The position numbers and the translations under genes are program-made. From Candidatus Binatia bacterium (lineage in GTDB: Bacteria > Desulfobacterota > Binatia > HRBIN30): DNA of 64,000 nucleotides. Positions 24,827 through 36,100 of this stretch are shown in pieces (the stretch's first letter is position 1; every line of letters starts with the position of its first letter). The notes under the pieces were generated by a model. It did not search any database. It worked only from the letters and a program-made list of their open reading frames with translations, and was not told the origin of the DNA. Where the stretch lies: contig CALAMI010000014.1 of NCBI GenBank assembly GCA_937925685.1, positions 1 to 64,000 on the forward strand, in the 5' to 3' direction.

Positions 24827-27415
24827 CTAGGCTGCACGGCGGAGCTGCTGGAGCGCCAGGAGCACGCTTTTGAGCTCCTCCGGGGAGCAAGGCTTGCGCA
24901 AAGTCGGTTGACTCTCCAGGCGGGAGCGGAAATTTGTTGCGGTTTTTCGCCACAGCCCTCCGCTCACGAACACGACTCGACGAGCCAGCTCCGGGCGGTT
25001 TTCCGTCAACCAACGGTAAACGTCGCTACCGCTTAAATCCGGCAGGCGAAGATCAAGGAATACCGCATCCCAATCGCGACTCGTGCACCGATCAATTGCG
25101 TCGCGACCTGTAAAGGCCTTTTCCACGGACAAGCCTTCGCGCTGGAGCATTGTCGCCAAGGTCTCGGCCACTATCTCGTCGTCGTCCACCACCAAAGCGT
25201 GCGGCTTTGGCAGCTCTGGCGAACGCCGCAACTCTTGTGCCTCTGCGCCCGGCACCCCAGGCAATTCCAGACGGAAGGTGGTGCCTAAGCCGAGACGACT
25301 CCGAACGGTGAGGTTGCCGTGATGCTCGCGCACAATGGCATAACTAATGGACAGGCCTAGCCCACTGCCGGATTTCTTGGTGGTGAAAAAAGGGTCAAAA
25401 ATCCTCGACATCGTCTCCGGGGCAATCCCCATGCCGTTGTCCTCGACCTCGATCGCACCAACACCTCCGGAGGCGCTGGTGCGGACCACGATGCGGCCGC
25501 CATCTGTCTCGGGCAGCGCCTGAAGTGCATTGGTCAGCAAGTTCATCAACACTTGCTGGATCAGCCCAGGGTCGGCCTTCACTTCGAAGCCAGAAGAGGT
25601 GTCTTCAAATTCGAGTTGCACCCGTCGTTGCGCACATTGAGGAGCGAACAGCTCGACCGCGGTTCCGGCAAGGTCGCTCAACCGAACACAAGCAAATTTC
25701 GGGGGTGTCGGGCGCGCAAAGCCCAACATATCAGCCACCAAAGCTGCCATTCGCTGAGCTTGGCCCTCGATACGCTGCAACGCCCTCTCCACCACGACAC
25801 CGTTAGCGGCCGCCGTTGCCAATGAAATTTGGCCGAGAATGGCCGCGATGGCGTTGTTCAGTTCGTGCGCAAGCCCCGCAGCCAGCTCCCCTGCTGCAGC
25901 CAAGCGATTTGCTCGGGCAAGTTGCTCTTGGATCTCTTTTTCTGCCCTGATGTCTTCGAAAATCGCAACGATTCCTTCTACCGTGCCCTGGGGGTCGACG
26001 ATCGTGTTGGCATGAAGGCGTACGGGAACCAGGCTGCCGTCACGATGGCGCGCCGAGATTTCGCCGCGCCACTGATGGCGCACCTGCACTGACTCGTAGA
26101 CCGAACCCCAGCCTTCCGGCAGTGGCTCAGCAAAGTCGGTGGCGAGTTTGCCGGCGATATCATCCCACGTGTAGCCAAACATCTGGCTAAACGCCCGGTT
26201 CGCAAAGCGAATCCGACCCTCGCGATCGAGGATCAACACCCCCTCCTCCGTGCTTTCGACAGCGCGCAGCAAACGATAGCTTTGCTCTACCAAGCGCGCT
26301 CGCTCCAAAGCGAGCGCAAGCTGCGTGGCCAAGCCATCGGCTAGGCGAATGTCATACTGCGTAAAAGGGTGCTCAACCGAGCGAACGAATTGCAGCACGC
26401 CGTGAAAGTGGCGCTCGACCTTCAAGGGAGCAACGAGTGCACATTGCCCCGGCACACTGGCTGCGAACCCCACCGGCGCCCCCAGGATGACACAATGCCC
26501 TAAGCTTCGGACCCAGGCGAGATCCGGCACCTCATCGCTTGCAAGGTTTTGCCGTACCTGCCTCTGGGCAGCGTCCTGGCTTTCACCACGAACAGTGAAG
26601 TGGCTGTAACTCTGGAACTCCTCACTCCACAAAAGCGCGCTACTGAACTCCGCACGCAGCAGTTCACGACCAACCCGCAGAGCAGCGTCGAGTAGCTCGC
26701 GCGGATCTGCTAAGTGCGCTAGCGCGTTGCTGGCGCGCAGCAGCGCATTGGTGGTCCCCAGAGCGTGGCGCTCCCGCTGAGCCGCTGAGCGCACTCGCTG
26801 CGCTTCTGCGCGGCTCTTCCTCTCCCGTCGCGCCAAGTCGCCGGCAAGCCACACGAACAAACCGAGCGCAGTGGCAAAGACAAAAAAGTACGCGAACTGA
26901 AGTTCCAATCTGAGCGAGGGTGTCAGTGGTAAGACAAACGTCTCAATGCGCCAGACGCCTCCGACGATCGCAAACAGCAACAACCCCAAGGCAAACAGCA
27001 TCCCCGTGAGCACCCCCACAGCGGGGTTAACGACAAGCCCGTACGCAGCAACTTGGACACAAGCGAGCAATATCACTGGACTCACCAAGCCCCCGCTCAC
27101 GGCGGCAACCCAAAGGAGCGCGATCATGCTTGTTACTGCTTGAGCCAATACAATGCGGGGCCCAGGCTCACCCCTGCGGTAGCGTACGAAGGCCAGTGCA
27201 TTCACCGCGAAGTACCACCAAAGTACAGCCTCTCCGACCCCGAACCGCAACGGATGTTGCGGCCGCAACTGCTGCGCTACTTGCTCGAGCACGAGCCAAG
27301 CGGTCAAGCCAGCAACGACGCTCAGCCAAAACAGGGCCACGGCACTGCCTCGCATCCGCTCTCGGTCGGCTGGTTCGAACAAGACAAGCCTTGAAGTTGC
27401 TCGCACTCGAGGCAT
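24827..27415 (-). CDS. Hybrid sensor histidine kinase (TM-GAF-PAS-HK-REC)
   Basis: An 862-residue signalling protein. About six membrane helices fill residues 25-195. A GAF-like domain follows (about 200-370), then a PAS domain (about 380-490, STEEGVLILDREGRIRFANRAFSQMFGY), a HisKA domain with His517 in GLAHELNNAI, an ATPase domain ending in GLGLSISYAIV, and a C-terminal receiver with Asp788 in FLDLRLPDLSG. The attached receiver may act as an internal brake or pass phosphate on. The signal is unknown and no regulator lies beside it. It is convergent with sufT and divergent from the acyl-CoA dehydrogenase. Confidence 0.92.
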   Translation of the reverse strand: MPRVRATSRLVLFEPADRERMRGSAVALFWLSVVAGLTAWLVLEQVAQQLRPQHPLRFGVGEAVLWWYFAVNALAFVRYRRGEPGPRIVLAQAVTSMIALLWVAAVSGGLVSPVILLACVQVAAYGLVVNPAVGVLTGMLFALGLLLFAIVGGVWRIETFVLPLTPSLRLELQFAYFFVFATALGLFVWLAGDLARRERKSRAEAQRVRSAAQRERHALGTTNALLRASNALAHLADPRELLDAALRVGRELLRAEFSSALLWSEEFQSYSHFTVRGESQDAAQRQVRQNLASDEVPDLAWVRSLGHCVILGAPVGFAASVPGQCALVAPLKVERHFHGVLQFVRSVEHPFTQYDIRLADGLATQLALALERARLVEQSYRLLRAVESTEEGVLILDREGRIRFANRAFSQMFGYTWDDIAGKLATDFAEPLPEGWGSVYESVQVRHQWRGEISARHRDGSLVPVRLHANTIVDPQGTVEGIVAIFEDIRAEKEIQEQLARANRLAAAGELAAGLAHELNNAIAAILGQISLATAAANGVVVERALQRIEGQAQRMAALVADMLGFARPTPPKFACVRLSDLAGTAVELFAPQCAQRRVQLEFEDTSSGFEVKADPGLIQQVLMNLLTNALQALPETDGGRIVVRTSASGGVGAIEVEDNGMGIAPETMSRIFDPFFTTKKSGSGLGLSISYAIVREHHGNLTVRSRLGLGTTFRLELPGVPGAEAQELRRSPELPKPHALVVDDDEIVAETLATMLQREGLSVEKAFTGRDAIDRCTSRDWDAVFLDLRLPDLSGSDVYRWLTENRPELARRVVFVSGGLWRKTATNFRSRLESQPTLRKPCSPEELKSVLLALQQLRRAA

Positions 27416-29762: not shown

Positions 29763-30958
29763 CAGATGACTCTCAGTTCGCGCAGTCGTTGTTGCTCCGC
29801 TGGCGACAAACCCAGCAGCTGCCCGTACACTTCTGCATTGTGCTCTCCTAACCGTGGTGCTCCACGGGTGATCTGGCCGGGAGTCTCCGATAATCGCGGG
29901 TACACAGCCTGCATGCGAATCGGTCCGATAACTGGATCGTTTACTTCCACGATGCTTTGGCGAGTACGATAATGCGGGTCTGCAAAGATATCGGCAATCG
30001 AATACACGCGTGAGACGGGCACCTCTGCTGCCACAAGGATGCTCTCGATCTCCGCCGCGGTGTGTTCTCGAACCCACTCCCCTACCACGGCATGAATTTC
30101 CTCGGCGTGCGCCACTCGCGCCTCCAGGGTCGCAAACCGAGGATCCGAGGGCAGCTCCGGCCGGCCCATGGCTTGGGCTAGTCGGCGGAACAATGCATCG
30201 CCAGCCGCCACGATGCAAACGAACTCGCCATCTTTGGTCTCCCAATTGTCCAGAGGTGCGGAATTCGGCAACTGGTTACCCGAGCGTTCACGGACGAAAC
30301 CGAGGCGATCGTAGGCCGCGGCCGTATACTCGAGTACGCGAAAGACCGACTCGTACATCGCCAAGTCGATCCACTGTCCTGCTCCACCCCGTTCTCGGTG
30401 AAACAGCGCCAGCATGATCCCAAAAGCATTGAACACGGCGGTGAGGTAGTCAGCAATCAGAATGCCGGGGCGCACCGGCGGGCGATCAGGATACCCGGTA
30501 AGGTACAAGAGTCCACCGAACGCGATACCGATCCGATCGAGGCCCGGGCGGTCACGGTACGGCCCGGTTTGCCCGTACACGGACACACGGGCCAAGATGA
30601 TCCGAGGATTGTGCTGGCGAAGCGTGGTGAAATCTAGCCCCCACTTCTCCAATGTCCCGGGCTGGAAGTTCTCCACGATCACGTCGACTTGCGGCACGAG
30701 TTTCAAGAAAAGTTCGCGCCCAGCAGGCTTACGCAAGTCAAGCGTAATAGACTTTTTGCAGCGATTATCCACTGCCCACCACAATGAATAGTCGGCAACA
30801 AATGGGCCGATATGGCGCAAGAAATCCCCGCCGTCAGGCAATTCCACCTTGATGACCTCTGCACCGAATTCGGCAAGTAGCGTCGCCGCGAACGGGGCAG
30901 CAATGCGGGTCCCTAAATCTAGCACACGGATTCCACGAAGGGGAAACTCGGCGCTCAC
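29762..30958 (-). CDS. CaiB/BaiF family III CoA-transferase
   Basis: A 398-residue enzyme that moves CoA between carboxylic acids through an Asp-bound anhydride. The N-terminus has RVLDLGTRIAAPFAATLLAEFGAEVIKVE, and KSITLDLRKPAGRELFLKL, VENFQPGTLEKWGL and VSVYGQTGPY follow as in the family. An Asp in GILIADYLTAV is at the usual catalytic place. The start is GTG at 30958. It is coupled to rpiA downstream and divergent from the NtrY-like kinase. The acid handled cannot be told; alpha-methylacyl-CoA racemases share this fold. Confidence 0.9.
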   Translation of the reverse strand: MSAEFPLRGIRVLDLGTRIAAPFAATLLAEFGAEVIKVELPDGGDFLRHIGPFVADYSLWWAVDNRCKKSITLDLRKPAGRELFLKLVPQVDVIVENFQPGTLEKWGLDFTTLRQHNPRIILARVSVYGQTGPYRDRPGLDRIGIAFGGLLYLTGYPDRPPVRPGILIADYLTAVFNAFGIMLALFHRERGGAGQWIDLAMYESVFRVLEYTAAAYDRLGFVRERSGNQLPNSAPLDNWETKDGEFVCIVAAGDALFRRLAQAMGRPELPSDPRFATLEARVAHAEEIHAVVGEWVREHTAAEIESILVAAEVPVSRVYSIADIFADPHYRTRQSIVEVNDPVIGPIRMQAVYPRLSETPGQITRGAPRLGEHNAEVYGQLLGLSPAEQQRLRELRVI

Positions 30959-31033
30959 GGTAACCCTCTCAGCACAACCCTCGAGGGATCGTTGCCTTGC
31001 AGCGCTGTTGGCTGCGCCTTAGAATTTTCGCTC

Positions 31034-33298
31034 GTGAGTTCCTCTACGCGGCCCAACAGTGCAGCCCAGGCAGCGGGGTCTGCGCTCGCCGATGACGAGC
31101 GGAAGCGACGACGCAGAGAGTCGTGGCTCATCGTCCTTGCGGCCGTTGTCTTCCTCGGCCTCGCGTGGTGGGAGATCTCCCGCGATCCCGTCCGGGACAC
31201 TGGTCCGCTCAGCAGCAACGTAATCTCGTTCCTTCTAATCAATGTCAATCTGTTGCTCCTGATCCTGCTCATCTTTCTCGTAACGCGAAACGTCGTCAAA
31301 CTCATCTGGGAGCGGCGGCGAGGCATCTTCGGGGCTCGGCTGCGTACGCGGCTAGTGGCGGCATTCGTGGCGTTAACGCTCGGTCCTAGCATCTTGCTGT
31401 TTTGGGTTGCCCAAGGATTCCTGCAACTTGCCTTCGAGGCTTGGTTCCATAGCCGCGTCGAGGCTGCTTTGCACGGCTCGGTTGGCGTCGCGCAAAGCTA
31501 CTATCAATTCGCTGCCAACCAGGCCCTGCGTTTCGCCAGGGAAATCGGCCGCCAAATTCAAGCGCTCGGCTTGCTGGAGCCGGGTAAAGAGAGAGAGCTG
31601 CAGTCTTGGGTGGCGGTGAAGCTTCAGGAGTATGGTCTCGCCAGCGTCGACGTTTGGAACGAACGCCGACAACCACTCGCCCGCAGCAACGCTCCCGAAG
31701 CACCTGGCTTGCCACCACTGCCCGCGGAAGCTGGGAACACCGTTGTGATGGGGAACGACTTCGCTGAGACTCACCGGTGGGGCAAAGCCGATGTGGTACG
31801 AGTCGGCGTGCCCATTTATGACGGAGAAAAGCGAGTACTTGGGGTCGTGTGGGCTTCCTACGTCGTTCCTCGCAGCGTGGCCGACACCGTGCGCGCGATC
31901 GCCCGCTCCTTCGAAGAGTACCGCCAGCTCAACGTGATGCGCCAACCGATCAAAAATAGTTACATTCTAACGTTGGCGCTTTTAACGCTCGTACTCATTT
32001 TTTCCGCCACCTGGTTCGGCATTCGCCAGGCACGTAGTATCACTCGTCCCTTGTTGCAGTTAGCAGAGGGCACACGGGAAATTGCGCGCGGGAACTGGAG
32101 TTACCGTATCGAGCCGGCTGCCGCCGACGAAGAAATTGCGGTCCTGGTGGAGTCGTTCAACCAGATGACCAACGACCTCGAGAAAACCAATCTCGAACTC
32201 GTGGAACGACGGAACTACGTCGAAAATCTTCTCGCGAACATTGCGGCCGGCGTGGTTTCCATCGACCTGGAGGGCAGGATTTCCTCGGTCAACCCAGCTG
32301 CGGAGCGGATGCTCGGGATCTCCTTTCGGGAAGCTGCTGGCGCCCGCGTAGAGGAAGTGTTCAAGGGGGAGCAGTGGTCGTCATTGCTTGAAAGCGTGCA
32401 CGAGGCCCATCTTTACCCGCACCGCGATATCCAACGCCAAATGCATCTCGCCAGCGGCGAGTCACCGCTCACGACTCTGGTCACCGCTCGTTCCCTCCGT
32501 GACGCCCAAGGCAATCCCAAGGGCACCATTTTGTTTTTCGAAGACGTGACCCACTTACTCCGGGTGCAACGAATGGAGGCTTGGGGAGAGGTGGCGCGAC
32601 GCCTCGCTCACGAAATCAAAAACCCCCTAACACCAATTCAGTTATCCGCCCAGCGGTTGCAAAAACGGTTGGCCGCTACGCTAAATGCCAGCGATCGCGC
32701 CGTACTGGACGATTGTGTTCGCGTGATCGTCGGTCAGGTGGAAGAAGTGAAGAAACTGATCAACGAGTTTTCCCGCTTTGCTCGCCTCCCCGCGGCGCAC
32801 TTGGAACCCGGCAATTTGAATCAATTGGTCGAGGAGGCGCTCGTGTTGTTCCAGCAAGCGCACCCAGAAATCGAATTCTCGCTTGTTGCTGACCCCTGGC
32901 TGCCGCCGGTCGACCTCGATCGGGAGACGTTGAAACGCGCGTTGGTCAACCTGCTGGACAATGCTGTGTTTGCTTGCCAAGCGGCAGGCGACGAACATCG
33001 GAAAGTCACCGTGAGCACCTTGTGGCTCGGTGAGCTCGAGACCGTCCGCCTCGAAATTGCGGACAGCGGCTGCGGCATGAGTGCGGAGGTGAAAGCGCGG
33101 CTCTTCGAGCCGTACTTCTCGACCAAGAAGGAAGGCACCGGCCTCGGCCTTGCCATCGTCGCGTCCATTCTTGCCGAGCACCAGGCTTACATCCGCGTGT
33201 TCGACAATGTCCCCCGCGGCAGTCGATTCGTCATCGACTTTCCGGCACGAACGTCAGGCCGCGCTTCCCTTGGCGTCCCCCAAGTCGCAGAGCGATAG
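31034..33298 (+). CDS. ntrY: NtrY-like sensor histidine kinase
   Basis: A 754-residue membrane kinase of the NtrY type. Three helices lie in the first 130 residues, with a periplasmic domain up to a fourth near 315-340, then HAMP, a PAS domain (LLANIAAGVVSIDLEGRISS) and a kinase core with His526 in RRLAHEIKNPLTPIQLS, the NtrB/NtrY form of the H-box. The ATPase part ends with GLGLAIVASILAEH. The GTG at 31034 is taken as start; a TTG at 30992 is possible. In other bacteria NtrY phosphorylates NtrX. Here the next gene is a receiver-LpxC fusion, the probable partner. Confidence 0.9.
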   Translation: MSSSTRPNSAAQAAGSALADDERKRRRRESWLIVLAAVVFLGLAWWEISRDPVRDTGPLSSNVISFLLINVNLLLLILLIFLVTRNVVKLIWERRRGIFGARLRTRLVAAFVALTLGPSILLFWVAQGFLQLAFEAWFHSRVEAALHGSVGVAQSYYQFAANQALRFAREIGRQIQALGLLEPGKERELQSWVAVKLQEYGLASVDVWNERRQPLARSNAPEAPGLPPLPAEAGNTVVMGNDFAETHRWGKADVVRVGVPIYDGEKRVLGVVWASYVVPRSVADTVRAIARSFEEYRQLNVMRQPIKNSYILTLALLTLVLIFSATWFGIRQARSITRPLLQLAEGTREIARGNWSYRIEPAAADEEIAVLVESFNQMTNDLEKTNLELVERRNYVENLLANIAAGVVSIDLEGRISSVNPAAERMLGISFREAAGARVEEVFKGEQWSSLLESVHEAHLYPHRDIQRQMHLASGESPLTTLVTARSLRDAQGNPKGTILFFEDVTHLLRVQRMEAWGEVARRLAHEIKNPLTPIQLSAQRLQKRLAATLNASDRAVLDDCVRVIVGQVEEVKKLINEFSRFARLPAAHLEPGNLNQLVEEALVLFQQAHPEIEFSLVADPWLPPVDLDRETLKRALVNLLDNAVFACQAAGDEHRKVTVSTLWLGELETVRLEIADSGCGMSAEVKARLFEPYFSTKKEGTGLGLAIVASILAEHQAYIRVFDNVPRGSRFVIDFPARTSGRASLGVPQVAER

Positions 33299-33426
33299 GG
33301 GAGCAACGTCAAGCTGCCTTTTGTCCGGCTTCGGAGCTGGCTAAGGAAACCACCCATGTGCTATCGACGTCACCAGTCTCGGGCTCGCGAGCAAGTGGGG
33401 TCGATCACGGGGAGGTAAGAGAACAG

Positions 33427-34725
33427 ATGGCTACCGTTCTGGTGGTGGACGACGAACCGGAAATTCGAGCCTCGCTGCGCAACATCCTTGCCGAGGAAGG
33501 CTTGGAAGTACTCGAAGCTGAGGATGGTCGGGCGGCTTTGAACGCGATGTACGCTGCCCGACCCGACCTGGTCATCGTTGACGTTTGGATGCCAGAAATC
33601 GATGGTTTGGCGTTCCTGCGGATCTTGCGCGAGGCAGAGCACCTCGATCCGTTGCCCCCGGTGGTCATGATCTCGGGGCACGGCAACATCGAAACGGCTG
33701 TGCAGGCAACCAGGCTAGGGGCGATAGACTTCGTGGAAAAACCGTTCTCCCTCGAAGGTTTCCTCTCCACGGTGCACCGTGCCTTGCAAACCCAGCGGGA
33801 GCAGGGAAAGGGGGCCGGTCCACTAGCCCCGGCGTTTCGCCCTGAAGACGCCCCGACTGCCACCGGCGTTTCTGTCGCCGCGAAGACCGTGCGCTCATTG
33901 CAGCGCACAGTAGCGCGAAGCGTGGTCCACACCGGCACAGGTCTGCATAGCGGCATGAAAACGGGCTTGATCTTGCAGCCCCTGCCACCGGGAGCAGGAA
34001 TTGTTTTCTCGAGCCTATCGGCCGAGGCAACGGTGCCCGCGCACCTGGACTGGGTAGATTCAACAGGTTACGCCACCACGTTGCACCGCCCTGGAATAAC
34101 CGTGCGAACCGTCGAGCACCTGCTCGCCGCTCTCCACGCCTATGGGGTCACCAATCTCTTCGTCAAAGTTCAGGGAGAGGTGCCCATTCTCGACGGCTCG
34201 GCTGCAGGCTTTTGCCGATTGCTGGAACAGGCCGGGGTGGTGGAACAGGACGCCTGGGTGGAAGACATTGTCATCGAGGAACCCATCGAAGTGCGACGCG
34301 ATGAAAACGAGTGGATTCGCATCGAACCCTTCGAGGGCCTGGCCGTGTCCTATTTTTTGGAGTACCCAGCTCCCGTAGGGAGGCAGTCTTACCAGTACGT
34401 CCACCGAGGACCTGCAGCGTTCCGCGACGAAATCGCCCCGGCTCGCACGTTCGGCTTTGTTCGTGACCTCAAGCAAATGGCGGCCATGGGGCTTGCCTCT
34501 GGCGGCCGGTTGGATAACTGCATCCTCATTGACGACGAAAAAATCGTCAACACGGCGTTGCGCTTTCCAGAGGAATTGGCCCGGCACAAAATCTTGGACA
34601 TCCTCGGAGACATGTATTTACTCGGGCGCCCAATTCGCGGGAAAATCACTGCCCAAAGAACCGGCCACTCCGAAAACATCGCCCTCTTACGAGAGGTCCG
34701 CCAACGTTGCTTCTTTTCACGATAA
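33427..34725 (+). CDS. lpxC: Fusion of NtrX-type receiver domain and LpxC deacetylase
   Basis: A 432-residue two-domain protein. Residues 1-120 are a response-regulator receiver with Asp8/Asp9, phospho-acceptor Asp52 and Lys105, most like the receiver of NtrX (MISGHGNIETAVQATRLGA). After a linker of about 40 residues rich in Pro and Ala, residues 160-432 are LpxC, the zinc enzyme that deacetylates UDP-3-O-acyl-GlcNAc, the committed step of lipid A synthesis. LpxC key residues are all present: Glu230 and His231, Thr341, His387 and Asp391 for zinc, and His414. The NtrX AAA+ and DNA-binding domains are absent. Its start is 128 bases after the ntrY stop. An in-frame GTG at 33889 could in principle give free LpxC, but no ribosome site precedes it. 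Confidence 0.93.
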   Translation: MATVLVVDDEPEIRASLRNILAEEGLEVLEAEDGRAALNAMYAARPDLVIVDVWMPEIDGLAFLRILREAEHLDPLPPVVMISGHGNIETAVQATRLGAIDFVEKPFSLEGFLSTVHRALQTQREQGKGAGPLAPAFRPEDAPTATGVSVAAKTVRSLQRTVARSVVHTGTGLHSGMKTGLILQPLPPGAGIVFSSLSAEATVPAHLDWVDSTGYATTLHRPGITVRTVEHLLAALHAYGVTNLFVKVQGEVPILDGSAAGFCRLLEQAGVVEQDAWVEDIVIEEPIEVRRDENEWIRIEPFEGLAVSYFLEYPAPVGRQSYQYVHRGPAAFRDEIAPARTFGFVRDLKQMAAMGLASGGRLDNCILIDDEKIVNTALRFPEELARHKILDILGDMYLLGRPIRGKITAQRTGHSENIALLREVRQRCFFSR

Positions 34726-34769
34726 AGGAGCGACAAGCAGCTCAGTCAAAGGGGATGAGAGGGCGCTTG

Positions 34770-34787
34770 GTGGATCCTGCGGACCAC
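34770..34787. terminator. Small hairpin in convergent gap
   Basis: GTGG-A-TCC and GGACCAC form a seven-pair stem with one bulged A and the loop TGC. It lies 44 bases after the lpxC-fusion stop and 27 bases from the end of the convergent carboxypeptidase gene. There is no T tract. Confidence 0.22.
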
Positions 34788-34814
34788 AGCCCAGACCGAC
34801 GTGCCGCACCGTTG

Positions 34815-35978
34815 TCAGCGCTGGACCACCGACACTGCGACCCGGTGATGGGCCCGGCGCAAGTCTTGCGCAACTCTGTGAGCTTCGGTGGCGTCGGCAA
34901 ATCCTCCCACCGTCACCCGGTACGCTGTCTGCCGTTTACGCCGCTCTTTTTCCACTCGCACAGAATACCCGCGCTGGCGTAACATCGCGCTGACGGTCCT
35001 TGCGGCATTGTAGTCCCGGAATGTTCCCAAACGCACGGCATAGGCTCCTCGCGCCGGGCGTTCGTCTAGCCGATCCCCGTCACCAGCAGTGCGACCGCCC
35101 GTTTCGGCCTGAGCAACGCGCAGGTCGAAGGGCCGTACCGAAGGCCACGGGTCCTGCCCAGTCGCAGCGGCTACGAGCTTTTTGATGTCTCCCCACAAGT
35201 CGGTCGTGCCCAGAACGGCAAAGGTCACGAGCCTGTCGTTCCAACGCGCTGCTCCCACGAAGCACCGTTTTGCCGCACGGGTATATCCAGTCTTTCCTAC
35301 GACTTCGATTGGGTATTCCCCGAGCAACCGATTGTGGTTTCGTAGCGCGATTGGACGAGCCCCGGCGCTGGTTGGGCGAATCTGCGCGGAACGTGTCGAG
35401 ACGATTTCCAAAAAGAGCGGATGTCGAACCGCATGACGAAAAATCGTGGCCAAGTCCCGCGCGGTCGAATGGTGTCCCTCCGCTGGGAGGCCATTGGGGT
35501 TGACAAAATGGGTATTTCGCGCACCGAGCCTCGTCGCCAACCCATTCATTTGCCGGGCAAATGCGGGTACCGATCCGGCGAGGCCCTCGGCAATGACGAT
35601 GCTTGCGTCGTTGGCGGAATTCAACAAAATCGCGTACACGAGATCGAGTAGCTGCATTCTCATCCCGGGTTTGAGCCCAATCTTGGAGGCTGGCGCCTGG
35701 GCCGCGTTGGACGACACGATAAAGGATTCCGCCAATCGCCCACTTTGCAGTGCCAGCAGCGCTGTGATGACTTTCGTCGTGCTCGCTGGAGGTAACGGTT
35801 CGTCTGGATTGTGGCTCCACAACACTGCCCCACTCTCCGCATCCATCACAATGGCCGAGCGCGCTGCAATCCCGTTGGCGGGCGGCGCGGCAGACACTGA
35901 TGCCGGCTCGCTCAGGCTGAGGCAAACGCCAAGCCCTACCAAAACCATTGAGGTGAGTTGTTTTCCTCCTCTTCTCAT
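34815..35978 (-). CDS. D-alanyl-D-alanine carboxypeptidase (S11) with SPOR domain
   Basis: A 387-residue periplasmic enzyme that trims the terminal D-Ala from peptidoglycan pentapeptides. The N-terminal signal peptide (LTSMVLVGLGVCLSLSEPAS) is followed by the penicillin-binding motifs in order: ASTTK, SAN (in LLNSANDAS) and KTG (in VGKTGYTR). Instead of the membrane-anchoring tail of PBP5, residues 310-387 form a SPOR domain (YAVRLGTFRDYNAARTVSAM), which binds septal peptidoglycan lacking stem peptides. GGAG lies eight bases before ATG 35978; ATG 35993 is also possible. Confidence 0.92.
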   Translation of the reverse strand: MRRGGKQLTSMVLVGLGVCLSLSEPASVSAAPPANGIAARSAIVMDAESGAVLWSHNPDEPLPPASTTKVITALLALQSGRLAESFIVSSNAAQAPASKIGLKPGMRMQLLDLVYAILLNSANDASIVIAEGLAGSVPAFARQMNGLATRLGARNTHFVNPNGLPAEGHHSTARDLATIFRHAVRHPLFLEIVSTRSAQIRPTSAGARPIALRNHNRLLGEYPIEVVGKTGYTRAAKRCFVGAARWNDRLVTFAVLGTTDLWGDIKKLVAAATGQDPWPSVRPFDLRVAQAETGGRTAGDGDRLDERPARGAYAVRLGTFRDYNAARTVSAMLRQRGYSVRVEKERRKRQTAYRVTVGGFADATEAHRVAQDLRRAHHRVAVSVVQR

Positions 35979-36100
35979 CGCCACATCTCCCATCCCGCTC
36001 ACTACATCCCGTGCTCCTTGCACCATGCTCGAAACCGGGTCGCCTTGTCAACCGCAAACTATCACCCAAGCCTCGCACTCGTTCTACCGGATTTCCCTCG

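Follow-up and report, generated by a model that had tools for sequence, protein, structure and literature searches.

An NtrX-type receiver fused to LpxC beside an NtrY-type kinase in Candidatus Binatia, and related fusions in other lineages

Described two-component links to lpxC and the fused locus

Two-component regulators have been tied to lpxC, the gene of the committed lipid A enzyme, in earlier work. In R. sphaeroides, according to an excerpt of PMC7240162, loss of NtrYX raises the lpxC transcript, an effect thought to be indirect because no NtrX site was identified upstream of lpxC, and the available part of PMC12444477 gives two-fold lipopolysaccharide (LPS) in Rhodobacter upon NtrYX loss and a similar repression of lpxC in C. 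crescentus. In D. vulgaris, lpxC is the single mapped target of DVU2934, and in S. fumaroxidans it lies directly upstream of the orthologous regulator operon (both from sections of PMC3333781); a two-component link to lpxC therefore exists at the transcript level. Here, we describe a locus in a stretch of 64,000 nucleotides from a Candidatus Binatia bacterium (the window; assembly GCA_937925685.1, contig CALAMI010000014.1, forward strand), in which the gene of an NtrY-type kinase is followed by one gene joining an NtrX-type receiver to LpxC. The organism belongs to HRBin30, an order of Binatota (excerpt of PMC8262859).

Like the NtrY-NtrX systems of alphaproteobacteria and their relatives, the locus combines an NtrY-type kinase with a receiver that its tree places with the NtrX proteins of separate gene clusters, but its regulator is without AAA+ or DNA-binding domain and carries LpxC, whereas the known effect of NtrYX is on the transcript. 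DVU2934, likened here without being assigned to NtrX, is likewise a response regulator tied to lpxC but is a DNA-binding transcriptional regulator. The enzyme part has the fold and catalytic residues of ordinary LpxC and differs from it in the N-terminal NtrX-type receiver, in a short C-terminal tail and in its place on its own side of a long branch. LpxC also occurs in a natural fusion in the bifunctional LpxC-FabZ (NCBIfam PRK13188), where it is joined to another biosynthetic enzyme; against this family the window protein scored 201 bits, below the cut-off of 465. In CheB and similar proteins, a receiver, a linker and an enzyme follow one another and phosphorylation controls the enzyme; the window protein likewise has receiver and enzyme in a single chain under a single start. 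CheB, however, acts within a signalling pathway, whereas the output in the window would be the committed enzyme of an envelope biosynthetic pathway. A published description of a receiver::LpxC fusion was not found in the open-licence PMC literature, a search that did not extend to protein databases, so that mention elsewhere is possible. The fusion is not mentioned in the passages of PMC5007114 consulted for Nitrospina and LpxC, and the main text of PMC8262859 contains none of the terms LpxC, LPS and two-component.

The kinase and fusion genes form a two-gene unit on the + strand, with the ATG of the fusion gene 128 nt past the kinase stop. The sequence-only reading of the window had described an NtrY-type kinase with His526 followed by a single open frame with intact receiver and LpxC residues, and this description was confirmed and much extended, both to a class-wide fusion and to longer NtrX::LpxC forms. 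The kinase carries the complete NtrY domain set (NtrY_N 36.3 bits, HAMP 45.6, PAS_4 41.6, HisKA 38.8, HATPase_c 72.9), with His526 within AHEIKN, and is the one NtrY_N match of the genome. The 432 aa of the fusion protein, uninterrupted by a stop, matched Response_reg and LpxC in Pfam and neither a sigma-54 AAA+ nor a DNA-binding domain. The LpxC part scored well above the curated cut-offs (PF03331, 288.1 bits versus 27; TIGR00325, 260 versus 187.25), while the whole protein reached 118.9 bits against the NCBIfam NtrX cut-off of 600. Numbered from ATG 33427, the receiver residues D8, D9, D52 and K105 are intact, as are E230, H231, T341, H387, D391 and H414, which we take to be the zinc ligands and catalytic residues of LpxC. 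The top solved-structure matches of the LpxC part were the P. aeruginosa and A. aeolicus enzymes, and those of the receiver were 4d6x and 5m7n, presumably Brucella NtrX. An AlphaFold model of the window protein (64-sequence alignment) had a pLDDT of 90.4 and a pTM of 0.89 with a low-confidence linker; since a pTM of about 0.65 would be expected by our own arithmetic if both domains were freely placed, the model suggests that receiver and LpxC have a preferred arrangement.

The window's genome (3.7 Mb assembly, 95% complete) contained one PF03331 match and LpxK; a second, ordinary lpxC was not found. Four full-length NtrC-family regulators of the same genome were considered as a separate NtrX and rejected: their scores of 358-394 bits stay below the NtrX threshold of 600, and the receiver tree described below does not place their receivers with NtrX.

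Distribution, residues and forms of the fusion

Searches were made at the level of class and phylum on the best candidates per genome (12 or fewer for the class, 5 for the phylum); the counts 131, 7, 36, 20 and 56 below were made by eye on the match lists, those of 36 and 20 being lower bounds. Within the order, the fusion matched over both domains in 14 of 15 genomes, the fifteenth showing the LpxC part alone at a contig start; a genome of the same genus (G007) has the fusion at 83% identity, as does record BEIG01000107.1, Bacterium HR30 (HRbin30), and the fusion is present as well in records under titles such as Candidatus Binatia, Candidatus Binataceae or Deltaproteobacteria metagenome-assembled genomes (MAGs). 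Across Candidatus Binatia as a class, 138 of the 145 genomes matched, 131 over both domains (including G075, with a stop reported within the frame) and seven partially (G010, G060, G103, G106, G111, G120 and G141, at least five of these at contig ends), so that a misassembly or sequencing error joining two genes, a concern raised by the sequence-only reading, is untenable: the same fusion is found in many separate genomes. G125 carries an additional lpxC, unfused and on a contig of 3.1 kb.

With the phylum delimited as in the search tool, 274 of 297 genomes matched. Outside the class, at least 36 genomes, G387 and G345 among them, had a single stretch over both domains and one (G354) a cut one, and at least 20 further genomes had an LpxC match within a frame of at least 448 aa; of the 19 of these that were fetched, G274 was unfused and in 18, including L148 and L128, LpxC was preceded by an NtrX-like receiver. 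A search of the phylum to which a Nitrospinia MAG belongs matched 64 of 77 genomes, 56 of these LpxCs lying in frames of 670-797 aa, and the 22 distinct Nitrospinota loci fetched comprised 18 long fusions, three short ones and one cut off. By contrast, no fusion was seen in Myxococcota (97 of 117 genomes with a match) or Pseudomonadota (183 of 200), where among the matches listed none starts before query residue 124 and 116, respectively.

The fused proteins were compared in 142 rows, four of which (L246, L247, L248 and L249) are refetches of L015, L168, L169 and L167; these extra rows are also within the counts of residues, GAFTGA and Walker A patterns, internal starts, tails and adjacency with at least 1.5 kb upstream, and were left out of the distinct-locus ntrY adjacency and identity counts. 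L148, with its frame broken between receiver and LpxC, is outside the fused rows, and L155, which held no LpxC, was left out. L128 (G225), whose receiver cannot be read in frame over its first half, probably because of a frame break in the assembly or because the copy is decaying, was left out of the receiver tree, the Trp54-type residue counts and the identity means. The LpxC residues were kept in all 142 rows, except for T341 being S in two, and D52 was kept in 141; all 86 Binatia rows (85 distinct genes) have D8, D9, D52 and K105. Mean identity among 83 Binatia genes was 57.4% for the receiver, 57.8% for LpxC and 18.2% for the linker. Trp54 was present in all fused rows counted and in 10 of 10 separate NtrX proteins, whereas in 27 other receivers R, L, K and C were commonest at this position; Gly84 occurred in 8 of these 27, and His85 (16 of 27) and Gly25 (20 of 27) are also common in them and thus of little diagnostic value. 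In a receiver tree limited by few columns, the receivers of short fusions, long fusions and separate NtrX proteins formed an 80-row group (support 99) apart from the 27 others, which include the four NtrC-family receivers of the window's genome. These comparisons support the view that the receiver of the fusion is of the NtrX kind.

The relatives form a series that runs from separate lpxC-ntrY-ntrX genes through NtrX::LpxC fusions whose AAA+ part is degenerate to receiver::LpxC without AAA+. Among 21 unfused lpxC loci, chosen by hand and non-randomly from the phylum match list, 11 had a clear ntrY downstream on the same strand, followed in 10 of the 11 by ntrX, and 7 of these 10 separate NtrX proteins have GAFTGA. 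Five long fusions scanned with Pfam showed Response_reg, Sigma54_activat or Sigma54_activ_2 and AAA_lid_14 before LpxC, and none of the five had a DNA-binding domain; among 32 long-fusion rows (30 distinct) the Walker A pattern was found in 32 and GAFTGA in none, and the helix-turn-helix (HTH) region was missing by eye in several. L181 (G437, in the Nitrospinota group) has no AAA+ part; between its receiver and LpxC lies the remnant of a Fis-like HTH, and by its sequence it has the features of a mosaic intermediate. In a quick, unrooted LpxC tree with Binatia thinned to 19 rows, 72 fused rows were split from 28 unfused ones by a branch of length 0.97 (support 99), and three short Nitrospinota forms nested among the long ones (support 82-89), which in such a tree fits repeated loss. 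Family f43 holds both fused (G170, G317) and unfused (G402) genomes; transfer between lineages, suggestive of horizontal replacement, is therefore likely. L162 (G433, Planctomycetota), with LpxC in a 460-aa frame, falls on the same side of the tree as the unfused rows and has a very long branch.

The sequence-only reading had called for a search for the fusion together with an adjacent ntrY, and in Binatia the two were found side by side. At 83 of 85 distinct Binatia loci ntrY lies upstream on the same strand (median gap 36 nt, largest 2289), and for the remaining two no more than 41 and 141 bases of sequence preceding the fusion were retrieved; a simple pattern recovered the H-box histidine in 80 of the 83 upstream ntrY genes. 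Outside Binatia, ntrY is adjacent to 7 of 12 long forms from lineages other than Nitrospinota and to 2 of 3 Nitrospinota short forms. In 25 genomes tested for NtrY_N, including four Binatia and one unfused control, 21 had one match, 19 of them above the cut-off. Where fused genomes have NtrY elsewhere, no NtrX was found after it in 13 of 14 cases, the 14 loci including three (L300, L306, L307) that hold 1.3 kb or less after ntrY and one (L310) that holds about 1.8 kb.

Gene coordinates and neighbourhood in the window

The features of the unit are listed in Table 1. The longest listed open reading frame of the fusion begins upstream of ATG 33427, at GTG 33358, which we do not think is the true start; the ATG is preferred. 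Both flanking genes are on the opposite strand, with a CoA-transferase family III gene before the unit and, convergent with the fusion gene, another envelope gene (34818-36026, -) coding for a D-Ala-D-Ala carboxypeptidase with a SPOR domain. Farther away, 24830-27415 (-) codes for a hybrid histidine kinase with GAF, PAS, HisKA and HATPase_c domains and a C-terminal receiver. No RNA family in the window matched at the gathering score, and a sigma-70 promoter scan of 30800-34950 found none, which against the 0.6 expected in shuffled sequences is uninformative.

Table 1. Features of the kinase and fusion genes, in window positions.
Feature	Position	Strand	Basis or remark
NtrY-type membrane histidine kinase	31034..33298	+	754 aa from GTG 31034, start approximate
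Codon of predicted phospho-donor His526 (AHEIKN)	32609..32611	+	motif; position counted from GTG 31034
GGGAGG, likely ribosome binding site of fusion gene	33410..33415	+	sequence before ATG
Receiver::LpxC fusion gene, 432 aa, ATG start	33427..34725	+	open reading frame and Pfam
NtrX-type receiver domain, residues 4-114	33436..33768	+	Pfam Response_reg 105.1 bits; receiver tree
Codon of predicted phospho-acceptor Asp52	33580..33582	+	residue alignment
Variable interdomain linker, about residues 125-158	33799..33900	+	18.2% identity on average among Binatia; pLDDT low at 130-140 and 146-151
In-frame GTG, possible internal start in the sequence-only reading	33889..33891	+	weak ribosome site; position unconserved
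LpxC domain, residues 159-424	33901..34698	+	Pfam 288.1 bits; sole LpxC match in genome; 18 residues after His414

Possible control of LpxC by the fused receiver

We consider it probable that the fusion is a response regulator with LpxC as its output, which as the partner of the upstream NtrY would be phosphorylated by it and would control the enzyme in cis. NtrY would sense the state of the envelope or membrane and autophosphorylate on His526, and the phosphate would be passed to Asp52; we infer this transfer from the residues, the gene pairing and the finding of no other NtrX. The state of the receiver would then set the output of LpxC in cis, most likely because receiver and enzyme would dock differently or change their dimer contacts, much as in the receiver-enzyme CheB. 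As to the sign of control, our tentative and rather doubtful guess is that the unphosphorylated receiver restrains LpxC and phosphorylation releases it. Of the mechanism put forward by the sequence-only reading, direct control of LpxC by phosphorylation, the NtrX-kind receiver, the NtrY pairing, the intact residues and the single lpxC stand, while the effect on activity, allostery and the directions of control and of evolution are inferred; direct control in cis would be the likeliest mechanism. The envelope link of NtrYX in alphaproteobacteria, invoked by the same reading, holds insofar as the lpxC transcript is affected (excerpt of PMC7240162), but as an analogy only, since that effect is apparently indirect.

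Several observations weigh against this interpretation. Seven of the 145 Binatia genomes are without any PF03331 match; as the listed completeness of three of them (G041, G045 and G116) is 92%, 96% and 99%, bin gaps are not the sole possible cause and a real loss of lipid A is also possible. Two genomes, G387 and G345, carry the fusion plus an ordinary lpxC. The one family to which loci L133, L134 and L153 of these genomes belong has both a divergent short receiver::LpxC of about 40% identity and, in G387, the ordinary lpxC, followed by ntrY and, by eye, an apparent lpxK. With at least 1.5 kb upstream, ntrY adjoins 1 of 19 short forms of other members of the phylum and none of 4 Nitrospinota long forms; NtrY_N had no match in 4 of the 25 genomes tested and was below the cut-off in two more; and G418, the exception among the 14 genomes above, has a receiver::LpxC as well as a separate NtrY-NtrX pair. 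The conservation of Asp52 is silent on which kinase uses it. A second AlphaFold model, for a non-Binatia fusion and based on a shallow alignment of 21 sequences, had a pTM of only 0.73 and a long helix after the receiver, and for this reason conserved docking is not claimed. The tail argument that follows would lose force if unfused LpxC proteins of lineages not sampled here also had short tails.

After the last active-site His, 140 fused rows have 13-34 residues and 32 unfused ones 32-67; the window LpxC has 18, ending in RCFFSR, and is without the motif LAXXXXXAVLA. In E. coli the C-terminal end of LpxC contains an FtsH degron with this motif, and FtsH control of LpxC is largely restricted to Enterobacteriaceae (both from the available part of PMC12444477). 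We read the difference as a probable shift of control from the C-terminal to the N-terminal end of the enzyme. The difference also bears on the alternative that phosphorylation sets the amount of LpxC and not its activity, the receiver standing in for the lost C-terminal signal as a signal-dependent N-terminal tag for degradation or as an adaptor site. We regard this as unlikely: the short fused tails and the position of the E. coli degron (excerpt of PMC12444477) would agree with it, but the proposed receiver degron is hypothetical, no search having been made for one, and because FtsH control is largely confined to Enterobacteriaceae, the tail of the unfused relatives may lack such a role.

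It is less probable that the receiver is served by another kinase or by small-molecule phosphodonors, with NtrY as a bystander or phosphatase. Several fused genomes have NtrY at a distance or gave no match to it, and cross-talk is possible in kinase-rich ones, but NtrX-type residues such as W54 are kept, NtrY is adjacent in Binatia wherever the fetched DNA allows, and a remote NtrY is usually without another NtrX after it. We give slightly less credence still to the receiver being a docking or localisation module that tethers LpxC to the membrane-bound NtrY, phosphorylation being secondary. A membrane-type NtrY adjoins the gene in Binatia, and a LapB homologue has been suggested to localise LpxC in Neisseria (part of PMC12444477), yet simple tethering would not need the invariant D8, D9, D52 and K105 of the 86 Binatia rows, and many fusions elsewhere lie away from ntrY. 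Finally, that the fusion is a translational linkage only, with LpxC working as usual, for example from an internal start, and the receiver working alone, is highly improbable: although the linker is variable and contains an ATG or GTG in 50 of 86 Binatia rows, such as GTG 33889 in the window, 36 have none, strong ribosome sites accompany a linker ATG or GTG in 4 of the 86 rows and the main start in 57, and the linkage of receiver and LpxC holds across the class and beyond. GTG 33889, suggested by the sequence-only reading as a possible start of the main product, is rejected, with a poor ribosome site at an unconserved position.

As for the origin of the receiver-LpxC system, a whole NtrX was probably fused once to LpxC, after which sigma-54 contact, DNA binding and lastly the AAA+ part would have been lost, leaving receiver and enzyme; the fused enzyme also lacks the longer tail at the C-terminus, where E. 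coli LpxC has its proteolysis signal. On balance, we favour the view of a two-component system with the committed lipid A enzyme as its output, which would stem from a single NtrX-LpxC fusion, occurs in Binatota, Nitrospinota and several deltaproteobacterial lineages, and in which direct phosphorylation in cis would have replaced transcriptional or proteolytic control of LPS while the regulator was reduced step by step, from a transcription factor to a receiver alone.

To our knowledge, how LPS synthesis is matched to the state of the envelope is poorly known outside a few model groups. The fusion offers a one-protein, one-kinase system as an in vitro test case for the effect of phosphate on LpxC, and since LpxC is a much-studied antibiotic target, with many inhibitor complexes among its solved-structure matches, a naturally attached receiver is of structural interest. 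The series from separate genes through full and decayed fusion to bare receiver resembles a record of a transcription factor turning into a regulator of an enzyme, and in the bacteria that carry it, synthesis of the outer membrane may be switched directly by a signal.

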